This document shows, piece by piece, positions 3,617 to 20,334 of a stretch of 64,000 nucleotides of DNA. Both the position numbers and the translations under genes were made by a program. The stretch's first letter is position 1. The number at the start of each line of letters is the position of its first letter. Under the pieces are notes generated by a model that saw nothing but the letters and a program-made list of their open reading frames with translations, was not told the origin of the DNA and made no database searches. The DNA is from Christiangramia salexigens (GTDB lineage Bacteria; Bacteroidota; Bacteroidia; Flavobacteriales; Flavobacteriaceae): positions 1,894,501-1,958,500 of the forward strand of contig NZ_CP018153.1 in NCBI RefSeq assembly GCF_001889005.1, in the 5' to 3' direction.

Positions 3617-4405
3617 TTATTTTACTAAAAACCAGTTATTCAATAATTGCTCTCTGTTATAGAGCATCTCCTCCTGAGTTTTATAATCCATAACTGTTTT
3701 ACCGGCAAAGGTACAGATAGCCTGTCCGGCAGCCGTATCCCACTCCATGGTAGGTGCCAAACGAGGATATTCATCGGCCTGCCCCTCTGCCACCATACAT
3801 AGTTTCAGAGAACTTCCCTTAGAGATGGTTTCCACCTTACCATGTTCTTTTTCCAGAGACGCTATATATTCCTCCGTTTCAGGGGAAAGATGAGATTTAC
3901 TGGCCACCACCGTGAAATGCTCCTTATTCACGTTTTTAGGAAGGTTACCTGCCTTTGAAGAAATTTCTTCCAGACTGCTGAATTCTGTTATATCATCAAG
4001 CTTAAAAGCTCCGTTTTCCTTATCTGCAAAATAGAGTTGTCTTAAAGCCGGCACGTAGATCACTCCCAGGATTGGCTTCTGGTCTTCCACCAATGCAATA
4101 TTCACGGTGAATTCTCCATTTCGCTTGATAAACTCCTTGGTCCCGTCTATAGGATCAACGATCCACAGTTGTTTCCAATCTTTTCTTTCCTCATAAGAAA
4201 GGTCTTTTCCTTCTTCAGAAAGTACTGGAATCCCGGTATCCTTTAAATGCTTCATGATTATTTCATGAGAAGCTAGATCTGCTTTGGTCAGCGGAGAATC
4301 ATCTCCTTTAAAATCCACTTCAAAATCTTCATTCTCATAGATCGCCATGATGCGCTTCCCTGATTCCAGAGAGGCTTTTATAGCTATTTCTAATAATTGT
4401 TCCAT
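3617..4405 (-). CDS. cysQ: 3'(2'),5'-bisphosphate nucleotidase, inositol monophosphatase family
   Basis: A Mg2+-dependent, Li+-sensitive-type phosphatase of 262 residues that hydrolyses 3'-phosphoadenosine 5'-phosphate, a by-product of sulfate activation. The family motifs are in order: SEEGKDL (metal site 1), DPIDGTKEF (metal site 2) and EWDTAAGQAI near the C-terminus. The location in a sugar-nucleotide operon suggests a link to sulfated polysaccharide production, but that is inference. The first palindromic repeat lies 23 bases upstream of the start codon. Confidence 0.9.
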   Translation of the reverse strand: MEQLLEIAIKASLESGKRIMAIYENEDFEVDFKGDDSPLTKADLASHEIIMKHLKDTGIPVLSEEGKDLSYEERKDWKQLWIVDPIDGTKEFIKRNGEFTVNIALVEDQKPILGVIYVPALRQLYFADKENGAFKLDDITEFSSLEEISSKAGNLPKNVNKEHFTVVASKSHLSPETEEYIASLEKEHGKVETISKGSSLKLCMVAEGQADEYPRLAPTMEWDTAAGQAICTFAGKTVMDYKTQEEMLYNREQLLNNWFLVK

Positions 4406-4428
4406 GTAATAACTTGAAATTTTTCCAC

Positions 4429-4548
4429 CGTCAGTTCGAGTGATCCCGATGAAATCGGGATTGTATCGAGAACGACGGTTTTATGTACATATACTTCTCG
4501 ATACGATTTCTTCTCCGCTTCACTTCGAAGGAATCACTCGAAGTGACG
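4429..4548. repeat. Palindromic intergenic repeat, family A, copy 1
   Basis: A 120-base element, nearly identical to 4925-5042 and in the same orientation. The outer arms CGTCAGTTCGAGTGAT (4429-4444) and ATCACTCGAAGTGACG (4533-4548) are inverted repeats with one mismatch. A second inner pair is TTGTATCGAGAA and TTCTCGATACGA. The left half holds a perfect small hairpin TCCCGAT-gaa-ATCGGGA. The transcript could fold into a long cruciform. It ends 5 bases before the stop codon of the GIY-YIG gene. Confidence 0.93.
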
Positions 4549-4553
4549 CTAAC

Positions 4554-4844
4554 TTAATTAAATTTTTTCTTTGCAAGATTCGGCAGATCCGAATATCGCC
4601 CGGCGATCAGTGCCTCTTTCTTAAATTTTGACCAGTTTTTGATCTGTTTCTCCTTTGAAATAGCAATGGTTATATCGGAAAATTCAGAATACCAAACCAG
4701 TTCAACCGGTCTTCGTTTAGCAGTATAACTTTTTGGATCTTCACCCATTTGGTGATCTACCAGTCTTTTTTCAAGATTTGAAGCAACTCCTGTATAATAA
4801 GTTCCATCTGAACACCTGAGTATATATACATAGCTTAACTCCAT
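4554..4844 (-). CDS. Small GIY-YIG family endonuclease
   Basis: A free-standing GIY-YIG domain of 96 residues (YhbQ/URI-like). Visible catalytic features are the first strand YVYIL (residues 5-9), the YIG-equivalent YYTG (16-19), the catalytic Arg27 in LEKRLVDH, and Glu65 in KEKQIKNW, so the active site looks intact. Proteins of this family cut or nick DNA through a Tyr/Arg/Glu site; the target of this one is unknown. The gene lies between two copies of a 118-120 bp palindromic repeat in direct orientation, which suggests the nuclease is tied to the repeats. There is no DNA-binding domain beyond the core. Confidence 0.88.
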   Translation of the reverse strand: MELSYVYILRCSDGTYYTGVASNLEKRLVDHQMGEDPKSYTAKRRPVELVWYSEFSDITIAISKEKQIKNWSKFKKEALIAGRYSDLPNLAKKKFN

Positions 4845-4924
4845 GCTTTATAAACCTTCTTGACACATTAGTCCAAAAATCTCATTTACGAAAAACACTC
4901 AATGTGACGACCTTCGTTTGATGC

Positions 4925-5042
4925 CGTCAGTTCGAGTGATCCCGATGAAATCGGGATTGTATCGAGAACGACGGTTTTGTACACTTACTTCTCGATACGA
5001 TCTCTTCTCCGCTTCGCTTCGAAGGAATCACTCGAAGTGACG
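4925..5042. repeat. Palindromic intergenic repeat, family A, copy 2
   Basis: A 118-base element in the same orientation as 4429-4548, differing at only a handful of positions and by a two-base length change near the centre. The outer arms CGTCAGTTCGAGTGAT and ATCACTCGAAGTGACG and the inner TCCCGAT hairpin are unchanged. It lies 80 bases upstream of the GIY-YIG start codon, so the two copies frame the gene. A short stretch at 4905-4919 resembles a decayed end of the same element. Confidence 0.93.
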
Positions 5043-5193
5043 TGATGCGATAGACTTTACAAATTCATAATCCTTTCTTAGGGGAGTTATATTAAGATTC
5101 TAATCCCTTCAATATTAAAAATAAACAATTATTAGGAACTCCCCACAATCCAATAAACAGATAGAAATCAGAGTTTTTAGTGAATTTAAAACC

Positions 5194-5667
5194 TTAAATA
5201 AGATCCTTCAGACTCGCTGTTAAGGTCCAGCCCAGACCGGGAAGTAGGAGTTTTAATGTTTTATTTCCGGTTTCTTTGACGATGGCTTTATTATTGGCAA
5301 GTTTTCCGTTTTTGATCTCTACTTCGTCTCCAGGCTTAAAGTCCCTTACCTTAAAATCTTCCAGGCTGTCATTATTCAACCAGGATTTGATCACCTCGAT
5401 CTCTTCAGGTTTCACTACCGCAGGCTTCTTAAGCCAGTGAAGATAGCTCAATACCCCGGGAGCCTGAAAAACCTGATTTCGGTTCTTCTCCTCCAGTTTC
5501 ACAAAAACATAAGATTTGAATAACGGACTTGTAACTTTCCGCTTGCGATCGCTCCATTGCCGTATCTCAGTATACACCGGACAATAGACCTCAACTCCCA
5601 GACCTTCCAAAAGGGCTGCGGTTTTTATTTCATGCTGGGGCTTTGTACGAACAACATACCAATGCAT
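5194..5667 (-). CDS. UpxY/RfaH-like NusG paralogue, transcription antiterminator
   Basis: A NusG-family protein of 157 residues. The N-terminal NGN domain begins MHWYVVRTKPQHE and contains the PLFKSYVFVKL core; the C-terminal KOW-like part starts near residue 110 (FKPGDEVEIKNG). It is shorter than housekeeping NusG and matches specialised paralogues such as RfaH and Bacteroides UpxY. Those ride on RNA polymerase and allow read-through of long surface polysaccharide operons. It is the first minus-strand gene upstream of GIY-YIG, cysQ, rmlB, rmlA, manC and gmd, the position UpxY genes occupy. About 350 bases separate it from the GIY-YIG start. Confidence 0.88.
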   Translation of the reverse strand: MHWYVVRTKPQHEIKTAALLEGLGVEVYCPVYTEIRQWSDRKRKVTSPLFKSYVFVKLEEKNRNQVFQAPGVLSYLHWLKKPAVVKPEEIEVIKSWLNNDSLEDFKVRDFKPGDEVEIKNGKLANNKAIVKETGNKTLKLLLPGLGWTLTASLKDLI

Positions 5668-13277: not shown

Positions 13278-16103
13278 ATGGCCGATCAAAAACGCCTTTT
13301 TTTACTCGATGCTTACGCATTAATTTTTCGTGGTTATTATGCCTTTATTAAGAATCCAAGGATCAACTCCAAAGGTTTCAACACCTCTGCGATCATGGGG
13401 TTCACCAATTCACTCTTTGATGTGATAAGAAGAGAAAAACCAGATCACCTTGCAGTGTGTTTTGATAAGAATGGAAGCGAAGCCAGGACAGAAATGTTCA
13501 CAGAGTACAAGGCCAACAGAGATGAAACTCCCGAACCCATTAGAGAAGCCATTCCAATTATACAGGATATTCTGAGAGCCATGCATATCCCGGTGGTGGA
13601 ACTCTCTGGTATGGAAGCAGACGATATTATAGGAACCCTTGCCAAACAGGCAGAAAAGGAGGATTACAAAGTATATATGGTAACTCCAGATAAGGATTTC
13701 GCTCAGCTGGTTTCTGAAAACATCTTTATGTACCGCCCGGCACGAATGGGTAATGGCATCGAGATCTGGGGAATTCCGGAAGTTCAGAAGAAATTTGAAG
13801 TCGAAAGACCGGAACAGGTGATAGATTTCCTTGGAATGATGGGGGACTCTGTAGACAACATTCCTGGATTACCGGGGGTTGGTGAGAAAACAGCAAAAAA
13901 GTTCCTGAAGCAATTCGGCAGTATGGAAGGCCTGCTGGAAAACACCGATCAGCTTAAAGGAAAGATGAAAGAAAAGGTGATCGAGAATGCTGAACTCGGC
14001 CGTCTTTCTAAAAAACTGGCCAGGATATTTACAGATTGTGATGTCAAGTTCCATGCAGAAGATTATGAGCTTTCAATGCCCGACACCGATAAGGTTCAGG
14101 AAATATTCGAGGAACTTGAGTTTAGAAGATTAAAGGATCAGTTTATAAAATTATTCAGCGGAGAAGAAGATAAAACTCAAACCCAGGTTTCCAATTCACC
14201 TTCAGCAAAACAAAATGCAAAAACTGCCGGTGCAGGACAGTTCTCATTATTTGGAGAAGGCGGAGAATCCATCGAATCCACTTCGTCCAGAAAAAGCCTG
14301 AAAGACACGCCACATGTGTACCAGGCTGTAAACACTGAGTTATCCAGAAAGTTATTCATGGAAAAACTAATGAAGCAAAAAAGTGTTTGCTTCGATACCG
14401 AGACCACAAGTTTAAATTCGCTGGAAGCAGAACTTGTTGGGATCGCATTTTCATGGGAGGCCGGTAAAGCCTATTATATTCCGTTCCCCGAGGAAAGAAA
14501 AGAAGCTCAGGCCCTTATCGAGGAGCTGAGGGTGTTCTTTGAAGATGAAAATATTGAGAAAATAGGCCAGAACCTTAAATATGATATAGAGGTACTTAAT
14601 AAGTATGATCTAAAGGTTGAAGGCAAATTGTTTGACACCATGATAGCGCATTATCTTATAAATCCGGATATGCGCCATAATATGGATGTTCTGGCAGAGA
14701 CTTATTTGAATTATAGTCCGCAGCCTATTACAGACCTTATTGGTAAAAAAGGAAAGAATCAGGGCAGCATGCGTGATGTTGCTTTAGAGAAGGTCACCGA
14801 ATATGCTGCAGAAGATGCCGATATCACCTTTCAGCTGAAGAACTTTTTCGAAAAAGAACTGGAAGAAGCTCAGACCAGAAAATTATTCGATGAGATCGAA
14901 ATTCCATTGGTAAAGGTGCTGGCAGATATGGAAATTGAAGGAATAAATCTGGATGAGACCTATCTGAAATCACTTTCTAATGCGCTTTCTTCAGACATCA
15001 AAGAACTGGAAACAAAGATCTATGAAGATGCCGGGGAAGAATTTCTGATAAGTTCACCCAAGCAACTTGGTGTGATCTTATTTGAGAAGCTTGCTTTGGT
15101 AAGCAAACCCAAAAAGACCAAAACCGGACAATATTCCACCAGCGAAGATGTACTATCTGCACTGGCTCCAAAACATGACATTATTCAGCGTGTGCTGGAT
15201 TTTAGAGGACTTGTAAAACTACAGAACACTTATGTAGATGCCTTGCCAAATCAGGTAGAGAAAACCACCGGGAGAGTACATACAGATTATGTGCAGACCA
15301 TAGCCGCAACAGGAAGGCTTAGCTCCAATAATCCTAACCTCCAGAACATACCAATTAGAACCGAGCGAGGCCGACAGGTGAGAAAAGCATTTGTCCCAAG
15401 AGATAAGAATTTTGTTCTTCTTGCTGCAGATTATTCCCAAATAGAACTAAGGATCATCGCGGCTTTAAGTCAGGAAGAAAATATGATCAAAGCCTTTAAG
15501 GAGGGTGAAGACATTCACGCTTCTACGGCCGCTAAAGTCTTTAATGTGCCAATAGAAGAAGTGACCCGTGAGCAGCGAAGCAATGCCAAGACGGTGAATT
15601 TCGGAATCATTTATGGGGTTTCGGCATTTGGACTAAGCAATCAAACTTCACTTTCCAGAAGCGAGGCCAAAGAATTGATAGACACGTATTATAAAACTTA
15701 TCCAAAACTGAGTAACTTCATTAGCGAACAGGTAGAATTTGCCAGAGAACATGGTTATGTATCTACGGTGCTTGGAAGACGTCGTTATCTAAAAGATATC
15801 AATTCACGAAATCAGGTTGTTCGCGGTGCTGCTGAGAGGAATGCGGTTAATGCACCTATTCAGGGAAGCGCGGCAGACATCATTAAGATCGCCATGATCA
15901 ATATTCACAGAAAGCTGAAAGAAGAAAATTATAAGACAAAAATGCTGCTTCAGGTACATGATGAACTTGTGTTTGATGCACACAAGGATGAACTCGATAA
16001 GGTAAAAGCCATGATCAAACAGGAAATGGAAAACGCCTATAAACTGGATGTTCCATTAGATGTAGATATGGGAACGGGAGAAAACTGGCTGGAGGCGCAT
16101 TAA
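13278..16103 (+). CDS. polA: DNA polymerase I
   Basis: A 941-residue replication and repair polymerase that removes RNA primers and fills gaps. It has three domains: 5'-3' exonuclease (about 1-290, with GMEADDIIG and the helix-hairpin-helix IPGLPGVGEKTA), 3'-5' proofreading exonuclease (about 365-540, with an intact FDTETTSL motif near residue 370), and the family A polymerase (from about 600; motif A DYSQIELR near 717, the RSNAKTVNFGIIYG O-helix, motif C HDELVFD). Unlike Taq-type enzymes the proofreading residues are present. A Gln/Ser-rich linker (about 300-345) joins the first two domains. Confidence 0.97.
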   Translation: MADQKRLFLLDAYALIFRGYYAFIKNPRINSKGFNTSAIMGFTNSLFDVIRREKPDHLAVCFDKNGSEARTEMFTEYKANRDETPEPIREAIPIIQDILRAMHIPVVELSGMEADDIIGTLAKQAEKEDYKVYMVTPDKDFAQLVSENIFMYRPARMGNGIEIWGIPEVQKKFEVERPEQVIDFLGMMGDSVDNIPGLPGVGEKTAKKFLKQFGSMEGLLENTDQLKGKMKEKVIENAELGRLSKKLARIFTDCDVKFHAEDYELSMPDTDKVQEIFEELEFRRLKDQFIKLFSGEEDKTQTQVSNSPSAKQNAKTAGAGQFSLFGEGGESIESTSSRKSLKDTPHVYQAVNTELSRKLFMEKLMKQKSVCFDTETTSLNSLEAELVGIAFSWEAGKAYYIPFPEERKEAQALIEELRVFFEDENIEKIGQNLKYDIEVLNKYDLKVEGKLFDTMIAHYLINPDMRHNMDVLAETYLNYSPQPITDLIGKKGKNQGSMRDVALEKVTEYAAEDADITFQLKNFFEKELEEAQTRKLFDEIEIPLVKVLADMEIEGINLDETYLKSLSNALSSDIKELETKIYEDAGEEFLISSPKQLGVILFEKLALVSKPKKTKTGQYSTSEDVLSALAPKHDIIQRVLDFRGLVKLQNTYVDALPNQVEKTTGRVHTDYVQTIAATGRLSSNNPNLQNIPIRTERGRQVRKAFVPRDKNFVLLAADYSQIELRIIAALSQEENMIKAFKEGEDIHASTAAKVFNVPIEEVTREQRSNAKTVNFGIIYGVSAFGLSNQTSLSRSEAKELIDTYYKTYPKLSNFISEQVEFAREHGYVSTVLGRRRYLKDINSRNQVVRGAAERNAVNAPIQGSAADIIKIAMINIHRKLKEENYKTKMLLQVHDELVFDAHKDELDKVKAMIKQEMENAYKLDVPLDVDMGTGENWLEAH

Positions 16104-16126
16104 GCTCCAGCCAATAATCTTTCTTG

Positions 16127-18775
16127 CTACATCATAAATCTGTAAGTAGCCTTTATAAGGAATGTATTTTGTGGTTTTTGTCTTAAAAGCTGATGATCTA
16201 TAATGGTATTGAAGTCATCATCTCCATTCCCAAATCCATTAATACCCTGAGACCAGACCAGAAATATTTCAGAACCCGGAATATATTCCCATCGCGCGAC
16301 CAGATTTGAGCGAAACTGAACAAATGAGAAATCGGGATTTAAAACAGTATAGTCCACACTTCCATTCCTGTCCTCATCTATTCTATAGACATTTCCGTCA
16401 AAATCGATCTGATCATCGCTATACCAGGTCACTCTGTTATTCAGATCTGCAGCTACCGGATCGTTCACATAATTAAGGGAGGAATAATCTGCCTTAAAAA
16501 TAAATGGTTGTCCATAATACTGAAGTGTAAGATTGGGATTAATACTGTAATTAAGTCGAAAAGTGGTACTCAGCATTTTTTGATCGATCTCCCCTAATAT
16601 ATATCTGTCCTGCCCATCAAAATTCTTTTGAGTAACATACTGGGTCTTATTCGGATTCTCGGTATACTGAACATCCAGACTCATGTTCAGGGAATTAAAG
16701 GGCTGATAGGTAAAAGTTGTACGATATAACCTAAAATCAAAGTTATCCTGCTTTGCCATCGAGTTTACATGACCAGCTTTAACAGAGAAGGCTTTTCGCT
16801 GATCTGTTCCGGAAAACAGATATACATAATTCTCTTCATTATATCGCCACCTTGGCCCTCCCCTAAGAAATGAATTGATAAAGATCCTCGGCTTATGTGC
16901 TCCTCCAAACTCAGACCACCAGTTATTTTTATAATTCACAAAAGCCTGTAGTTCATACTGTATACGGTTATAATTCCCTTCAAAGTCGTAAGCCGAAAAC
17001 TGATCCAGACTTATAGATGCTCTTCTATACCAGTTTGTAGGCTTATTGAACAACCTTCTAACCTGGGCGTACTGCCTTACTTCATCTGCCTGTCTTAGAA
17101 ACCCAATATCATTTAGTTCCAGTTCCGGCGAGATCCATTTAGCACCTAATTGATATCTCCAGTTTCCAACGCTGCTTTTTCCAAATTCGAATTTTCCTCC
17201 GGTTCCTGTTAAACTGGTTCTATCACCATCTACATCTACATGGTCTGCATCTGCCCTTTGAAAAAGGTGAACGATAGAATTCTGAGTAGCTTCTATGGCC
17301 TCCTCGCTTCCCTTTACATGGCTAAGCACTGCATTTCCTTCTATATAATATTTTCGGTCATTCCAGTTATGTCTAAAATCGAGTCCACCGGAATAAGCCT
17401 GAGTATGAAGGCTCGGAAAACTGTTTTCCAAATTTCTGTGTACCCCTGTAAATATTCCACCTATATAACTATTCCTTTCATTGAAATCCTTTTGAACTCT
17501 CCCAACAAAATAATTGGTAAGAGGTTCTACCAGAACTTCTTCCTCCTTTTCGTTGTTCATGATCACATCGGCGTATTCGCGACCCGTAACCGATTCTAGT
17601 ATTCCAAGTGTCCATCCATTCCGGGTTTTCCCACTAAACTTTGCCGCTCCAAGTATAGTTGTATTTTGAGGCTGATCCACATAAGCCACGTTTGGCCCGT
17701 ATGCATTGCCCTGAGGATTCCTTCCAATTCGTCGTGAAAAGAATAGATTATCCTGAGAGTCGGTAAAGCTGTAATCAAAAACACTCTTATTTTCAACAAA
17801 GAAAGGTCTTCTTTCTTCAAAGAATATTTCAAACCCATCCAGTGCTACTGCTCCGGGATCGGCATCCACCTGACCAAAGTCGGGGTTAATGGTAAGGTCC
17901 ACTGTTAGATCATTGGTTACACCGATCTTGGCATCTAGTCCAGCGGTTAGATCACCATCCCGACCATCACGGAAGGGATTCCCTTTTTCACTCTCATAAG
18001 AATTATATCGACCAACGGTATAAGGTTGTATCTCAAGTTGTTTTTGTGGTTTTAGATCCTTCAGGCCTCGAAGCTCTCCAAATTCACTAACCCAACCCGC
18101 GGGATTTGGTGGCACAGGTTGCCAGGTAGACCTTTCCTCTTTATTAAAATATCTTCGGGTAGATTGGATCCCCCACACCTGGTCCTTTTCATTACTAAAC
18201 CTTAACTGACTTAAAGGGATCTTTACTTCGGCGGTCCAGCCTTCTTCATCGATATTGGTCTTAAGATACCAGATTGGGTTCCAGCTTGAATCAAAATTGC
18301 TGTTATTGGAAACGAATTCATCACCTTTCACACCACTGGCAGAAATCGTAAATGAGAATGCCGTACGGTCATCATTATAGCTATCTATATTAAGTTCAAC
18401 CCAATCTCCTGGAAAATCATCCCTTCGCCCCATCCGCTGAACAATATTTTCTGGATTAGATTCATAACAACGAAAAGCAACATACAGGTTACTATCGTCA
18501 TATACGATCTTCATTTTCGTTTGCTGTGTAGGATGTGTGTTATTATCCGGTTGAAATTCAACATAATCTGAAGTCCATTCCACCGCATCCCATGCTGCGT
18601 CATCTATAAGACCATCTATTTTTATGGATTCTTTTCCCTCTACCGAGGTGGTCGTGTAGCTTCGTTTAGCAAAACCAAGATCCAGATCTGGTTTTGAATT
18701 TGCCTGTGAAAAGAGCTGAGAACAGATTAACAAAGAAAATAAGAGTAGCGAAAACCTTTTACCGGGTAGTGACAT
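16127..18775 (-). CDS. DUF5916 outer-membrane protein with CBM9-like domain
   Basis: An 882-residue exported protein with a signal peptide (about 1-25, ending LFSQA). Residues about 45-230 form a CBM9-like beta-sandwich (IDGLIDDAAWDAVEW, RRDDFPGDWVELNIDSYND), and the remainder is the DUF5916 region, rich in alternating aromatic and polar residues and ending in FLIKATYRFMM, as an outer-membrane beta-barrel would. The family is common in Bacteroidota and sometimes annotated as membrane-associated hydrolase or binding protein. The function is unproven; the N-terminal domain suggests binding of a carbohydrate or peptide at the cell surface. Confidence 0.85.
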   Translation of the reverse strand: MSLPGKRFSLLLFSLLICSQLFSQANSKPDLDLGFAKRSYTTTSVEGKESIKIDGLIDDAAWDAVEWTSDYVEFQPDNNTHPTQQTKMKIVYDDSNLYVAFRCYESNPENIVQRMGRRDDFPGDWVELNIDSYNDDRTAFSFTISASGVKGDEFVSNNSNFDSSWNPIWYLKTNIDEEGWTAEVKIPLSQLRFSNEKDQVWGIQSTRRYFNKEERSTWQPVPPNPAGWVSEFGELRGLKDLKPQKQLEIQPYTVGRYNSYESEKGNPFRDGRDGDLTAGLDAKIGVTNDLTVDLTINPDFGQVDADPGAVALDGFEIFFEERRPFFVENKSVFDYSFTDSQDNLFFSRRIGRNPQGNAYGPNVAYVDQPQNTTILGAAKFSGKTRNGWTLGILESVTGREYADVIMNNEKEEEVLVEPLTNYFVGRVQKDFNERNSYIGGIFTGVHRNLENSFPSLHTQAYSGGLDFRHNWNDRKYYIEGNAVLSHVKGSEEAIEATQNSIVHLFQRADADHVDVDGDRTSLTGTGGKFEFGKSSVGNWRYQLGAKWISPELELNDIGFLRQADEVRQYAQVRRLFNKPTNWYRRASISLDQFSAYDFEGNYNRIQYELQAFVNYKNNWWSEFGGAHKPRIFINSFLRGGPRWRYNEENYVYLFSGTDQRKAFSVKAGHVNSMAKQDNFDFRLYRTTFTYQPFNSLNMSLDVQYTENPNKTQYVTQKNFDGQDRYILGEIDQKMLSTTFRLNYSINPNLTLQYYGQPFIFKADYSSLNYVNDPVAADLNNRVTWYSDDQIDFDGNVYRIDEDRNGSVDYTVLNPDFSFVQFRSNLVARWEYIPGSEIFLVWSQGINGFGNGDDDFNTIIDHQLLRQKPQNTFLIKATYRFMM

Positions 18776-18875
18776 GATTGATGATTTTAAAAGATGATGT
18801 ATTTAATAGACCAATGCAAATGATCATTGTGACACCTCTTAAACATTTTAGCATTTTTTTAACACTCTTAGATAT

Positions 18876-18912
18876 AAAAAAAACCTCACAGCTTAGCACC
18901 TGCGAGGTTTTT
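18876..18912 (-). terminator. Rho-independent terminator of the lipoprotein gene
   Basis: A stem with arms AAAAACCTC (18879-18887) and GAGGTTTTT (18904-18912), with A and T tracts at either end, so it can work in both directions. It lies 34 bases downstream of the lipoprotein stop on the minus strand. Confidence 0.75.
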
Positions 18913-18945
18913 CTAACTAACACTAAAAACTACATTTGGATCGGC

Positions 18946-19521
18946 TTATTCCGCTCTGGTATATCCCAATTCCAAAATTCTTATTTCAGATGCCTGAGTA
19001 TTCCCCGGATCATCCACATATTGATCAGATTCAATTTTCGTAACATCAAATCCAAAAGTATTCGCCTGCATATTAATAGCCTTTTTATGTGTATACATAT
19101 AAGTATCTATCATCATGGTAAGGATCAAACTATCATTTCTCACTTCCCAATCGCCACCATCCATCCGACTTGAAATACATGAAAACTCATTATTCCCGGC
19201 TCCCTCTTCAAAACTCATGGTCGCATTATTAGTATTAAACGTTCCATCGTTGAAAAAAGTTATGTTCATTGTGTTAAAACATGAAGTCTCATCCAATAAA
19301 TTTGTGCTGCTTTGATCATCCCCATCCAGATCAACCGGAGCATCGGCAATCATTTGGCTAAGATCCCATTGCCCAACCATATCATTTGGACTTATGGCAG
19401 TGGCATTACTTACCTTTATAAGCTCCGATTCCTCAACCATATCCTCCGCGTTACAACTTATAACTAATCCCGCTATAGAAAGTCCCAATATGAGACCATT
19501 AATTTTTAAAAACCTTTTCAT
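18946..19521 (-). CDS. Lipocalin-like lipoprotein of unknown function
   Basis: A 191-residue protein with a lipoprotein signal: hydrophobic segment then LVISC, giving a lipidated Cys23. The mature part contains MVGQWDLSQM, ITFFNDGTFNTN and GGDWEVRNDSLIL, a pattern seen in Bacteroidota lipocalin-like lipoproteins (DUF4923/DUF5004-type). It should be anchored in a membrane facing the periplasm or outside. The ligand is unknown. A candidate promoter lies at 19543-19550 and a terminator follows the gene, so it is monocistronic. Confidence 0.8.
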   Translation of the reverse strand: MKRFLKINGLILGLSIAGLVISCNAEDMVEESELIKVSNATAISPNDMVGQWDLSQMIADAPVDLDGDDQSSTNLLDETSCFNTMNITFFNDGTFNTNNATMSFEEGAGNNEFSCISSRMDGGDWEVRNDSLILTMMIDTYMYTHKKAINMQANTFGFDVTKIESDQYVDDPGNTQASEIRILELGYTRAE

Positions 19522-19542
19522 CTTGTCATTCTTATTAGGCTA

Positions 19543-19550
19543 CAAAAATA
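19543..19550 (-). promoter_or_regulatory. Candidate -7 element of the lipoprotein gene
   Basis: TATTTTTG on the minus strand fits TAnnTTTG. It lies 21 bases upstream of the lipoprotein start codon. Confidence 0.5.
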
Positions 19551-19662
19551 AGCCAATCAACAAGAATTTTATGACTTTATTAACATAAATATTAACTTTT
19601 ATCGATTTTAAAGTGCTTTTCACCGATGCACCACAAGTTGTTTCAAATGAAAGAATTATGTT

Positions 19663-19758
19663 ATGACGCCTCTTAGCTCTAATGAAAAAGAATGGATTTT
19701 GGTATTAAAAAAGAGCGGCTTAGATTTGACTGAAAATCAGCTTCTTCAGGCCAAATAA
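19663..19758 (+). CDS. Possible 31-residue small protein before rplM (uncertain)
   Basis: A complete short frame starting at ATG 19663. The peptide reads MTPLSSNEKEWILVLKKSGL and continues for 11 more residues (LDLTENQLLQAK). It is balanced in composition and could fold as two short helices. It ends 17 bases before the -33 element of the rplM promoter. I do not recognise it. It may be a genuine small protein, a decayed gene end, or chance. Confidence 0.25.
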   Translation: MTPLSSNEKEWILVLKKSGLDLTENQLLQAK

Positions 19759-19774
19759 AATTATCTTTCCCGTA

Positions 19775-19805
19775 TTTGCTATATGAATTTATAATTGTAC
19801 ATTTG
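19775..19805 (+). promoter_or_regulatory. Promoter of the rplM-rpsI operon
   Basis: TTTG (19775-19778), 19 bases, then TACATTTG (19798-19805): an exact match to the Bacteroidota housekeeping promoter. Transcription should begin near 19812, giving a leader of about 67 bases before the rplM GTG. The promoter rules out any rplM start at 19795. Confidence 0.9.
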
Positions 19806-19811
19806 CACCCC

Positions 19812-19878
19812 TGTTTTCCCGATTGAGAGTCGGGCGAATGGGATTGGAATGTTTAATAATATAGTAAAATCAATTGGT
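19812..19878 (+). promoter_or_regulatory. Leader of the rplM-rpsI transcript (possible autoregulatory site)
   Basis: The expected 5' untranslated region contains the near-palindrome CCCGATTGAGAGTCGGG (19818-19834), which can form a CCCGA/TCGGG stem. Ribosomal protein operons are often autoregulated at such leaders. Whether this hairpin binds L13 or S9 is unknown. Confidence 0.35.
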
Positions 19879-20334
19879 GTGGACACATTAAGTTACAAAA
19901 CAGTATCGGCTAATAAAGCCACCAGAACCAAAGAATGGGTTGTGGTAGATGCTGACGGACAAAATTTAGGTCGTCTTGCTTCTAAAGTAGCATACCTACT
20001 TAGAGGAAAGCACAAGCCTAACTTCACCCCACATGTTGATTGCGGAGACAATGTAATTGTATTGAATGCGCAAGGAATCAACTTGACAGGAAAGAAATGG
20101 GACGCGAAAGAATACATCCGTCACACAGGCTTCCCGGGTGGACAAAAAAGTCTAACAGCTGCCGAATTATTCGAAAAAAGTCCTGAGAGACTTGTCGAAA
20201 AGGCCATTAAAGGAATGCTTCCAAAGAACAAACTTGGAGCAGACTTATTCAGAAATTTAAAGGTTTATGTAGGATCAGATCACGATCACGAAGCTCAAAA
20301 ACCTAAAACTATTAACTTAAACGACGTTAAGTAA
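19879..20334 (+). CDS. rplM: 50S ribosomal protein L13
   Basis: Ribosomal protein of 151 residues from a GTG start; the initial residues are (M)[14 protein letters not shown]. The L13 core is clear: [36 protein letters not shown] and RHTGFPGG. I start at GTG 19879 because it gives the usual Bacteroidota length and because the open frame upstream (to 19795) lies within the promoter and expected leader. The stop codon overlaps the rpsI start (TAATG), so the two are translationally coupled. Confidence 0.95.

Follow-up and report, generated by a model that had tools for sequence, protein, structure and literature searches.

We analyzed a 64,000-nucleotide stretch of the Christiangramia salexigens genome (the window) and found that a gene for a small GIY-YIG nuclease lies between two copies of a hairpin repeat. 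On our best reading, the locus is a REP/RAYT-like system in which a GIY-YIG nuclease stands in place of the HUH transposase. Repeats bracket the relatives of this gene non-randomly in three lineages of the nuclease and beyond Bacteroidota, and the type of repeat differs with the nuclease lineage. The repeats form covarying hairpins with a fixed head and mismatch, both occupied and empty sites exist in related genomes, and the genes sit in scattered neighborhoods. From these patterns in the DNA, we consider it probable that the GIY-YIG protein cuts and mobilizes its own hairpin. The original prediction had proposed such an arrangement, and it is supported by the bracketing, by the enrichment of the motif, by the empty sites, and by lineage-specific stems in 6 of 7 genomes.

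A GIY-YIG gene lies between two dimeric repeats

The gene and the repeats are listed in Table 1. As predicted, a GIY-YIG gene lies between two near-identical palindromic copies: the protein matches PF01541 with 63.2 bits (cut-off, 22.6), and copies 1 and 2 are in direct orientation with 95% identity across 121 columns. Four bases separate copy 1 from the stop codon and 79 bases separate copy 2 from the start codon. The prediction had described each copy as nested inverted repeats with a hairpin, a description that can now be refined, as the nested repeats are the heads and tails of two REP-like units. When the complete genome, a single contig of 2.98 Mb, was searched with a 141-base repeat query, the only two copies were those at the window locus. 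The exact class-1 unit pattern occurs five times in this genome, with four of the five units at the genome's own GIY-YIG gene. No Rfam family matched positions 4300-5200 of the window at the gathering score.

Table 1. Features of the window locus (window positions)
Feature	Positions	Strand	Remarks
GIY-YIG nuclease gene, 96 aa, single domain, class 1	4554..4844	-	PF01541, E=2.9e-17
Repeat copy 1 (dimer 1a+1b)	4428..4549	.	Sequence comparison
Repeat copy 2 (dimer 2a+2b)	4924..5042	.	95% identity to copy 1
REP-like unit 1a	4430..4473	+	C before it (CGTC head); GTTC/GAAC stem
REP-like unit 1b	4494..4547	-	CTTC/GAAG stem; tail to tail with 1a; head towards gene 3′ end
REP-like unit 2a	4926..4969	+	Head towards gene 5′ end
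REP-like unit 2b	4988..5041	-	Tail to tail with 2a
Flanking host gene, inositol monophosphatase family	3617..4405	-	Presumably CysQ-like
Flanking host gene, NusG-like protein of polysaccharide locus	5194..5667	-	

The predicted polysaccharide setting holds for the window, where the NusG-like gene flanks the locus, but is not general. Genomic settings are scattered: only 27 of 1770 pairs of 60 class-1 loci share a gene within 4 kb.

The active site, predicted to be intact, appears to be so from the PF01541 match and from the residues Y7, Y17, G19, R27, H31, E65, and N89, which are invariant in 28 aligned sequences; we take the Y, Y, R, H, E, and N among them to be the catalytic residues. Wherever dS was measurable between relatives, dN was far lower. 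Between the two gene copies of a genome of the same genus (G001), dN was 0.060 and dS 0.406, and the pair with the highest ratio observed had values of 0.066 and 0.221. A structure model of the window protein (pLDDT 81, pTM 0.71) had as its best fold match a UPF0213 NMR structure (3.2e-5), followed by a second UPF0213 structure (2.1e-3) and by Slx1-Slx4 entries at 0.025 and weaker, whose titles mention branched DNA. At E≤0.01, the only sequence relatives in the PDB were UPF0213 proteins, 1zg2 (3.5e-16) and 1ywl (1.7e-12). UPF0213, which we take to be COG2827, consists of stand-alone GIY-YIG proteins and is kin to the window protein in both sequence and fold. Unlike the window gene, the three Firmicute loci that we examined (Radiobacillus, Acetoanaerobium, and Subdoligranulum) lack a bracket, and the Radiobacillus gene lies beside rsmI.

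The repeat units share a code

Each copy contains two units, arranged tail to tail, with the layout GTCA-STTC-GAG...hairpin...CGA-GAAS. The window units, which are 44 and 54 nt long, have a 4-bp outer stem, a GA/GA mismatch, and an apical hairpin; the GAG...CGA portion could pair as two G.A mismatches and one G-C pair. Common to repeats of varying sequence are the GTCA head, a covarying stem, the GA...GA mismatch, and a covarying apical hairpin. The exact unit pattern is present in 113 of 299 genomes of the family and the read-backwards control gave 0 in every row, so the pattern is not due to chance. The outermost stem pair is Watson-Crick in 275 of 304 distinct class-1 units, compared to 141.5 expected from composition. 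Over 292 units, the first six apical-stem pairs make up 1752 cells, of which 1520 are Watson-Crick; when 3′ halves were swapped between units in 500 draws, the mean was 47.8% and the maximum 51.3%.

The mispairs in the apical stem comprise 72 G.T, 17 A.C, and 143 others. The excess of G.T over A.C suggests that the GTCA-first strand is the one that folds, as DNA or RNA. GTCA is preceded by C or T in 284 of 288 class-1, 44 of 51 class-2, and 81 of 106 class-3 units. The preceding base is C in the window units, which gives the unpaired CGTC head that defines a superfamily of REPs. Two other traits of that superfamily, a stem of 8-9 bp with a loop of 4-5 nt and a short CCA-type tail, are missing from the window units and from unit 1a (which is followed by GACGG), respectively.

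Repeats bracket relatives of the nuclease gene

To define class-1 loci, we took the best 79 of 548 confirmed candidates, picked by protein similarity only; 77 had enough flanking sequence. A bracket was scored when repeats matched at E≤1e-4 between the two 400-bp flanks, and other ORFs of 80-400 amino acids at the same loci served as controls. Direct repeats bracketed 63 of the 77 genes from these best 79 of 548, compared to 21 of 498 control ORFs (Fisher p=1.4e-51, ignoring relatedness, as related genomes are not independent). Counting direct or inverted repeats raised the number to 71 of 77; 14 loci lacked a direct bracket and 6 of these also lacked an inverted one. Relatives of the gene therefore do carry repeats, the outcome on which the original prediction had staked itself.

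Also as predicted, repeats are enriched beside GIY-YIG genes. Among the best 79 of 548 loci, the density of the motif GTCA-N4-GAG...CGA-N4′ is 2.80 per kb up to 500 bp from the gene and 0.12 per kb in the rest of the loci. The true motif had 307 near matches at these loci, compared to 0 to 5 for patterns in which heads or loops were scrambled (0 to 1 when heads alone were). A control with the motif complemented without reversal gave 134 near matches and is uninformative, because the CTTC stem reads alike either way. On the basis of the control ORFs and scrambled patterns, we rejected chance or repeat-rich gaps as the source of the bracketing.

These controls bear on a passive explanation, in which the repeats are terminators or RNA stability elements beside many genes and the small GIY-YIG gene lies between them by coincidence, in gaps rich in repeats. 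Such a role is consistent with the preponderance of G.T over A.C mispairs, as for a transcribed hairpin, and with the location of REPs mostly downstream of coding regions that one survey reports (PMC3733652). Yet control ORFs were bracketed in only 21 of 498 cases by direct repeats and, in a second set described below, in 6 of 69 by direct or inverted repeats; moreover, repeats also lie upstream of the gene, and their type goes with the nuclease lineage. We regard this explanation as very unlikely, while a side role of the repeats as terminators is possible.

Repeats also occur without a nearby gene. A search with the repeat DNA alone yielded matches in 10 other genomes of 58. Among 28 loci from those 10 genomes, taken with 1.5-kb flanks, the gene was detected at 1e-3 only in G001 and G029; wider stretches of G030 and G031 contained weaker GIY-YIG relatives. 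We then compared whole genomes, counting a class-1 gene as close at identity ≥54% and E≤1.9e-28, a cut of our choosing that 48 of 299 family genomes pass. The exact unit was present in 45 of these 48 and in 68 of the 251 others (p=8e-19, with related genomes not independent), leaving 3 class-1 genomes that lack it. The 68 genomes with units and no close class-1 gene are only partly explained: of 20 unit-bearing genomes that we re-searched with the alignment, 14 had some relative and 6 had none at E≤0.001, including G116 with its 17 units. The repeats thus persist or spread without a resident nuclease.

In G116 and G241, which lack a close nuclease, most units are solitary and their apical hairpins mostly differ; the search pattern had required exact heads and loops. 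Solitary units with diverse hairpins in genomes without the gene might be relics or elements moved in trans. One locus (L042, in G047) contains a tandem array of units with 113-bp spacing and no GIY-YIG match at 1e-3 within 10 kb.

The repeat type differs with the nuclease lineage

Two further lineages in Bacteroidota have repeats of their own. At 20 picked class-2 loci, stems include CACT, GTCT, and TGCT; 16 of the 20 are bracketed and the motif is on some side in 17. Class 3 was sampled at 30 loci that came from searching 296 genomes across the phylum; its stems are of types such as TTTC, TCCT, and TTCC, 24 of the 30 loci are bracketed, and the motif is on at least one side in 27. Seven genomes provided loci of two lineages each, and in 6 of them each gene is accompanied by stems of a different type; in the seventh (G203), the motif is absent at the second gene. 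The class-2 gene of G078 has one stem of the class-1 type, CTTC. The window genome itself carries a class-3 gene (1490398-1490688), and 9 of the genome's 12 exact TTTC-type units lie within about 400 bp of it.

We mapped the stems on a protein tree (126 proteins, 95 columns), which is poorly resolved, with 14 of 122 inner branches starred. On this tree, the inner stem dinucleotide required 15 changes, compared to 28.6 when shuffled and 20.9 when shuffled within class (minimum 18). Within class, neither the full stem (52 changes versus 57.2 in the within-class shuffle, minimum 51) nor the outer dinucleotide (44 versus 48.9, minimum 43) tracked the tree to any great extent.

A bracket of a different kind was seen at G000:C1:2634442-2635031 (L433 and L434), where a tRNA-Phe gene (L433 1767-1841) has as its neighbors two tandem GIY-YIG genes of a different type. 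One of the two is flanked by a 61-bp direct repeat (98%) that includes a terminator-like hairpin; the outer copy of this repeat and the end of the tRNA-Phe gene overlap.

Bracketing extends beyond Bacteroidota

We also examined 25 loci from plasmid-collection records, mostly from Proteobacteria and hand-picked for variety. Direct or inverted repeats (E≤1e-4) bracketed 16 of the 25, compared to 6 of 69 control ORFs. Short palindromes with CGTC, TGTC, or CCTC heads, many with a CCA tail, accompany the gene in Rhizobium, Sinorhizobium, Shinella, Neorhizobium, Aeromonas, Azospirillum, Novosphingobium, and Sphingobium; those of Sphingobium and Novosphingobium lack the CCA tail. In S. meliloti and Shinella, the repeat beside the gene is CGTC-ATCCTCGGG-CTTGA-CCCGAGGAT-CCA, with the head, the 8-9 bp stem, the 4-5 nt loop, and the CCA tail all present. 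In Planktothrix, GTCATTCTGAGTGAAACGAAGAA flanks the gene on both sides. A strict search for the head and an 8-bp stem gave 2.73 matches per kb near the gene versus 0.38 far from it, with matches on both sides at 13 of 25 loci. Other heads gave 0.00 to 0.27 per kb near the gene, and CAGC was on both sides at 2 of 25.

The remaining loci varied. Two Methylobacterium loci have longer repeats of a different look, and in Rhizobium tumorigenes and Photobacterium, palindromes were on the 3′ side only. No bracket at E≤1e-4 was found at the loci from Legionella lytica, Radiobacillus, Acetoanaerobium, Subdoligranulum, Spirosoma, Sphingomonas paeninsulae, or S. parapaucimobilis, the last of which has a weak bracket or none depending on the gene ends chosen and was counted as unbracketed. 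As 9 of the 25 loci are unbracketed, the bracketing rule holds for some lineages only. Among 46 viral-contig loci encoding distant GIY-YIG relatives, the GAG/CGA motif was absent.

In one Neisseria gonorrhoeae record, the GIY-YIG gene lies inside an array of dRS3 repeats, which are classified as CGTC-1 in PMC3733652. Meningococcal genomes contain 646 to 725 copies of dRS3 each, and a phage integrase has been proposed to act on them, according to PMC3898611. Because the repeat is so frequent there, this bracketing may be due to chance and carries little weight.

Related genomes contain occupied and empty sites

Empty sites, which the original prediction suggested seeking in relatives, were found in several genera. 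The gene of Azospirillum lipoferum 4B sits, together with its repeats, between sufB and sufC. This junction is free of both in A. ramasamyi and strain B510, whose aligned flanks are 95-96% identical. These two relatives were read base by base, and nine further matches at 72-74% query cover were set aside. REPs flank the gene at the filled site and are absent from the two empty ones, so the unit and its repeats seem to arrive together. In Sphingobium TomTYG46, the gene lies between fnrL and a regulator gene; it is absent from TomTYG72 and TomTYG74, also read base by base. Another pair of genomes belongs to a single genus. In G114, the gene sits between the first two of three dimer copies, the last of which is degenerate. 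In G327, the corresponding place has one dimer and, to one side of it, 1.26 kb of other sequence; no window-type GIY-YIG gene was found in this genome. In the window's own genus, the NusG-like and CysQ-like genes of G009 are 54 bp apart with no repeat or GIY-YIG gene between them, a comparison whose orthology is uncertain because the NusG-like proteins are 50% identical. No TSD was readable, as the intergenic flanks have diverged between filled and empty sites.

Several of these loci have further features. In Shinella sp. PSBB067 (L458; NZ_CP069303.1), a GIY-YIG gene 48% identical to that of A. lipoferum also lies at the sufB-sufC junction, with a different CGTC repeat, which suggests independent insertion of the two genes at one operon junction. 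The empty site of Sphingobium TomTYG74 (L495, from 1034) holds a CGTCAC...GTGACG near-palindrome that could be a scar in which two flanking REP halves were fused. G001, of the same genus as the window, has two gene copies, 89% identical, in one polysaccharide locus, each within a repeat array. Many repeat units lie at 14500-20000 of this locus (L033), where rmlA, rmlB, and cysQ are arranged in a different order than in the window, as if the arrays were points of rearrangement.

GIY-YIG homing endonucleases of the I-TevI type combine a GIY-YIG catalytic domain with the self-spread of their own gene. The main rival to our reading follows this model: a selfish GIY-YIG gene would cut existing REPs that spread by other means, and repair would copy the gene in to give repeat-gene-repeat. 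The window gene resembles these endonucleases in its domain and its proposed self-spread, and differs from them in the flanking hairpin repeats, in having no separate DNA-binding domain, and in that no intron or intein was found at the window. Homing would fit the single dimer without a gene in G327 beside the three dimers (third degenerate) and gene between first and second in G114, the direct orientation of the copies, the repeats in genomes where no gene was detected, and the REP-like palindrome at one Sphingobium empty site. Against it are the two Azospirillum empty sites, which lack the REPs found on either side of the gene at the filled site, and the G009 gap between the NusG-like and CysQ-like genes, which also lacks a repeat. 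In addition, nuclease lineages differ in repeat type even inside one genome, and Y1 transposases, the sole other mobilizer tested, do not fit. We consider homing into pre-existing REPs unlikely.

Discussion

The arrangement resembles that of GTAG REPs and REPINs with their RAYT (TnpA-REP), as described in PMC3733652 and PMC6006769, in that a gene for a small nuclease is flanked by hairpins with a 5′ tetranucleotide, the hairpins form dimers, and copies without the gene exist. It differs in its catalytic chemistry and in its head: RAYTs are HUH proteins with a catalytic tyrosine, whereas the window has a GIY-YIG protein, a CGTC/TGTC head, and no Y1 match. At the window, a nuclease gene is indeed flanked by its own hairpin type, but the gene between the repeats is GIY-YIG and not an HUH Y1 gene, and the head is (C)GTCA and not GTAG.

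That these are ordinary REPs moved by an IS200-like Y1 transposase, with the GIY-YIG gene as a passenger, is extremely improbable: although the hairpins, with their unpaired 5′ tetranucleotide and inverted dimers, look like GTAG REPs and 13 of 28 repeat-bearing genomes have Y1 genes, the other 15, including the complete genome of the window and genomes with 44 to 72 exact units, have no PF01797 (Y1) match, and of 30 Y1 loci that we fetched, 1 had the motif within 500 bp and 0 had it on both sides. On these two results, we rejected RAYT mobilization as the main reading. Likewise, a Y1 gene flanked by CGTC REPs was not found in the 2013 survey (PMC3733652).

In that survey (Di Nocera, De Gregorio and Rocco 2013, BMC Genomics 14:522), CGTC REPs constitute one of two REP superfamilies and occur in five phyla; its text states that they "apparently lack a dedicated transposase" and names G. 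forsetii as CGTC-positive. The term "GIY" is absent from the text of PMC3733652. Among the matches listed from the open-licence PMC literature, we found no paper linking GIY-YIG nucleases to such repeats; PMC9465073 names a GIY-YIG gene and makes no link to repeats.

Our repeats share with the CGTC REPs, as the survey (PMC3733652) describes them, the unpaired CGTC, TGTC, or CCTC head, the palindrome, the head-to-head and tail-to-tail dimers, and the occurrence in several phyla, including Bacteroidetes and Alphaproteobacteria. The stem, loop, and CCA tail described there fit the repeats at the GIY-YIG genes of Rhizobium, S. meliloti, Shinella, A. lipoferum, and Aeromonas. By contrast, the window units are longer (44 and 54 nt), with the GA...GA mismatch and apical hairpin and without the CCA tail. 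We therefore call the window units a longer variant and do not file them as a member of the CGTC REPs, while many of the proteobacterial repeats fit.

The reading that we prefer, a GIY-YIG nuclease in the role of a RAYT, can be put as a mechanism. The compact mobile unit would consist of a gene for a nuclease with a single GIY-YIG domain and, on either side, copies of the hairpin repeat that the nuclease recognizes. It would be the GIY-YIG counterpart of the REP/RAYT pair ("REPtron"), of a kind that may include the partner for CGTC-tagged REPs in Proteobacteria. The nuclease would bind the folded GTCA-first strand, either single-stranded on the lagging strand or in an extruded cruciform, and cut at or beside the CGTC head or the hairpin foot. 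The break or the released strand could then lead to copying or insertion of repeat-gene-repeat and, in trans, of repeats without the gene. Recombination between the direct flanking dimers could also delete the gene and leave a solo dimer.

More broadly, we lean towards the view that stand-alone GIY-YIG nucleases drive a distinct class of mobile DNA, with lineage-specific CGTC-headed hairpin codes, in which the nucleases mobilize both themselves and hairpins without the gene; this would be a second REP system alongside GTAG/RAYT. A cognate GIY-YIG nuclease would give the CGTC REPs a candidate partner, which is testable with one 96-residue protein and short oligonucleotides. If true, it would also mean a second catalytic chemistry for REP mobilization, assign a function to genes annotated merely as "GIY-YIG nuclease family protein", and supply many natural nuclease/hairpin pairs for studies of structure-specific recognition. 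Such a system would account for the CGTC REPs, perhaps including neisserial and rickettsial repeats, as well as for the GTCA...GA...GA repeats found in Bacteroidota and in Planktothrix.
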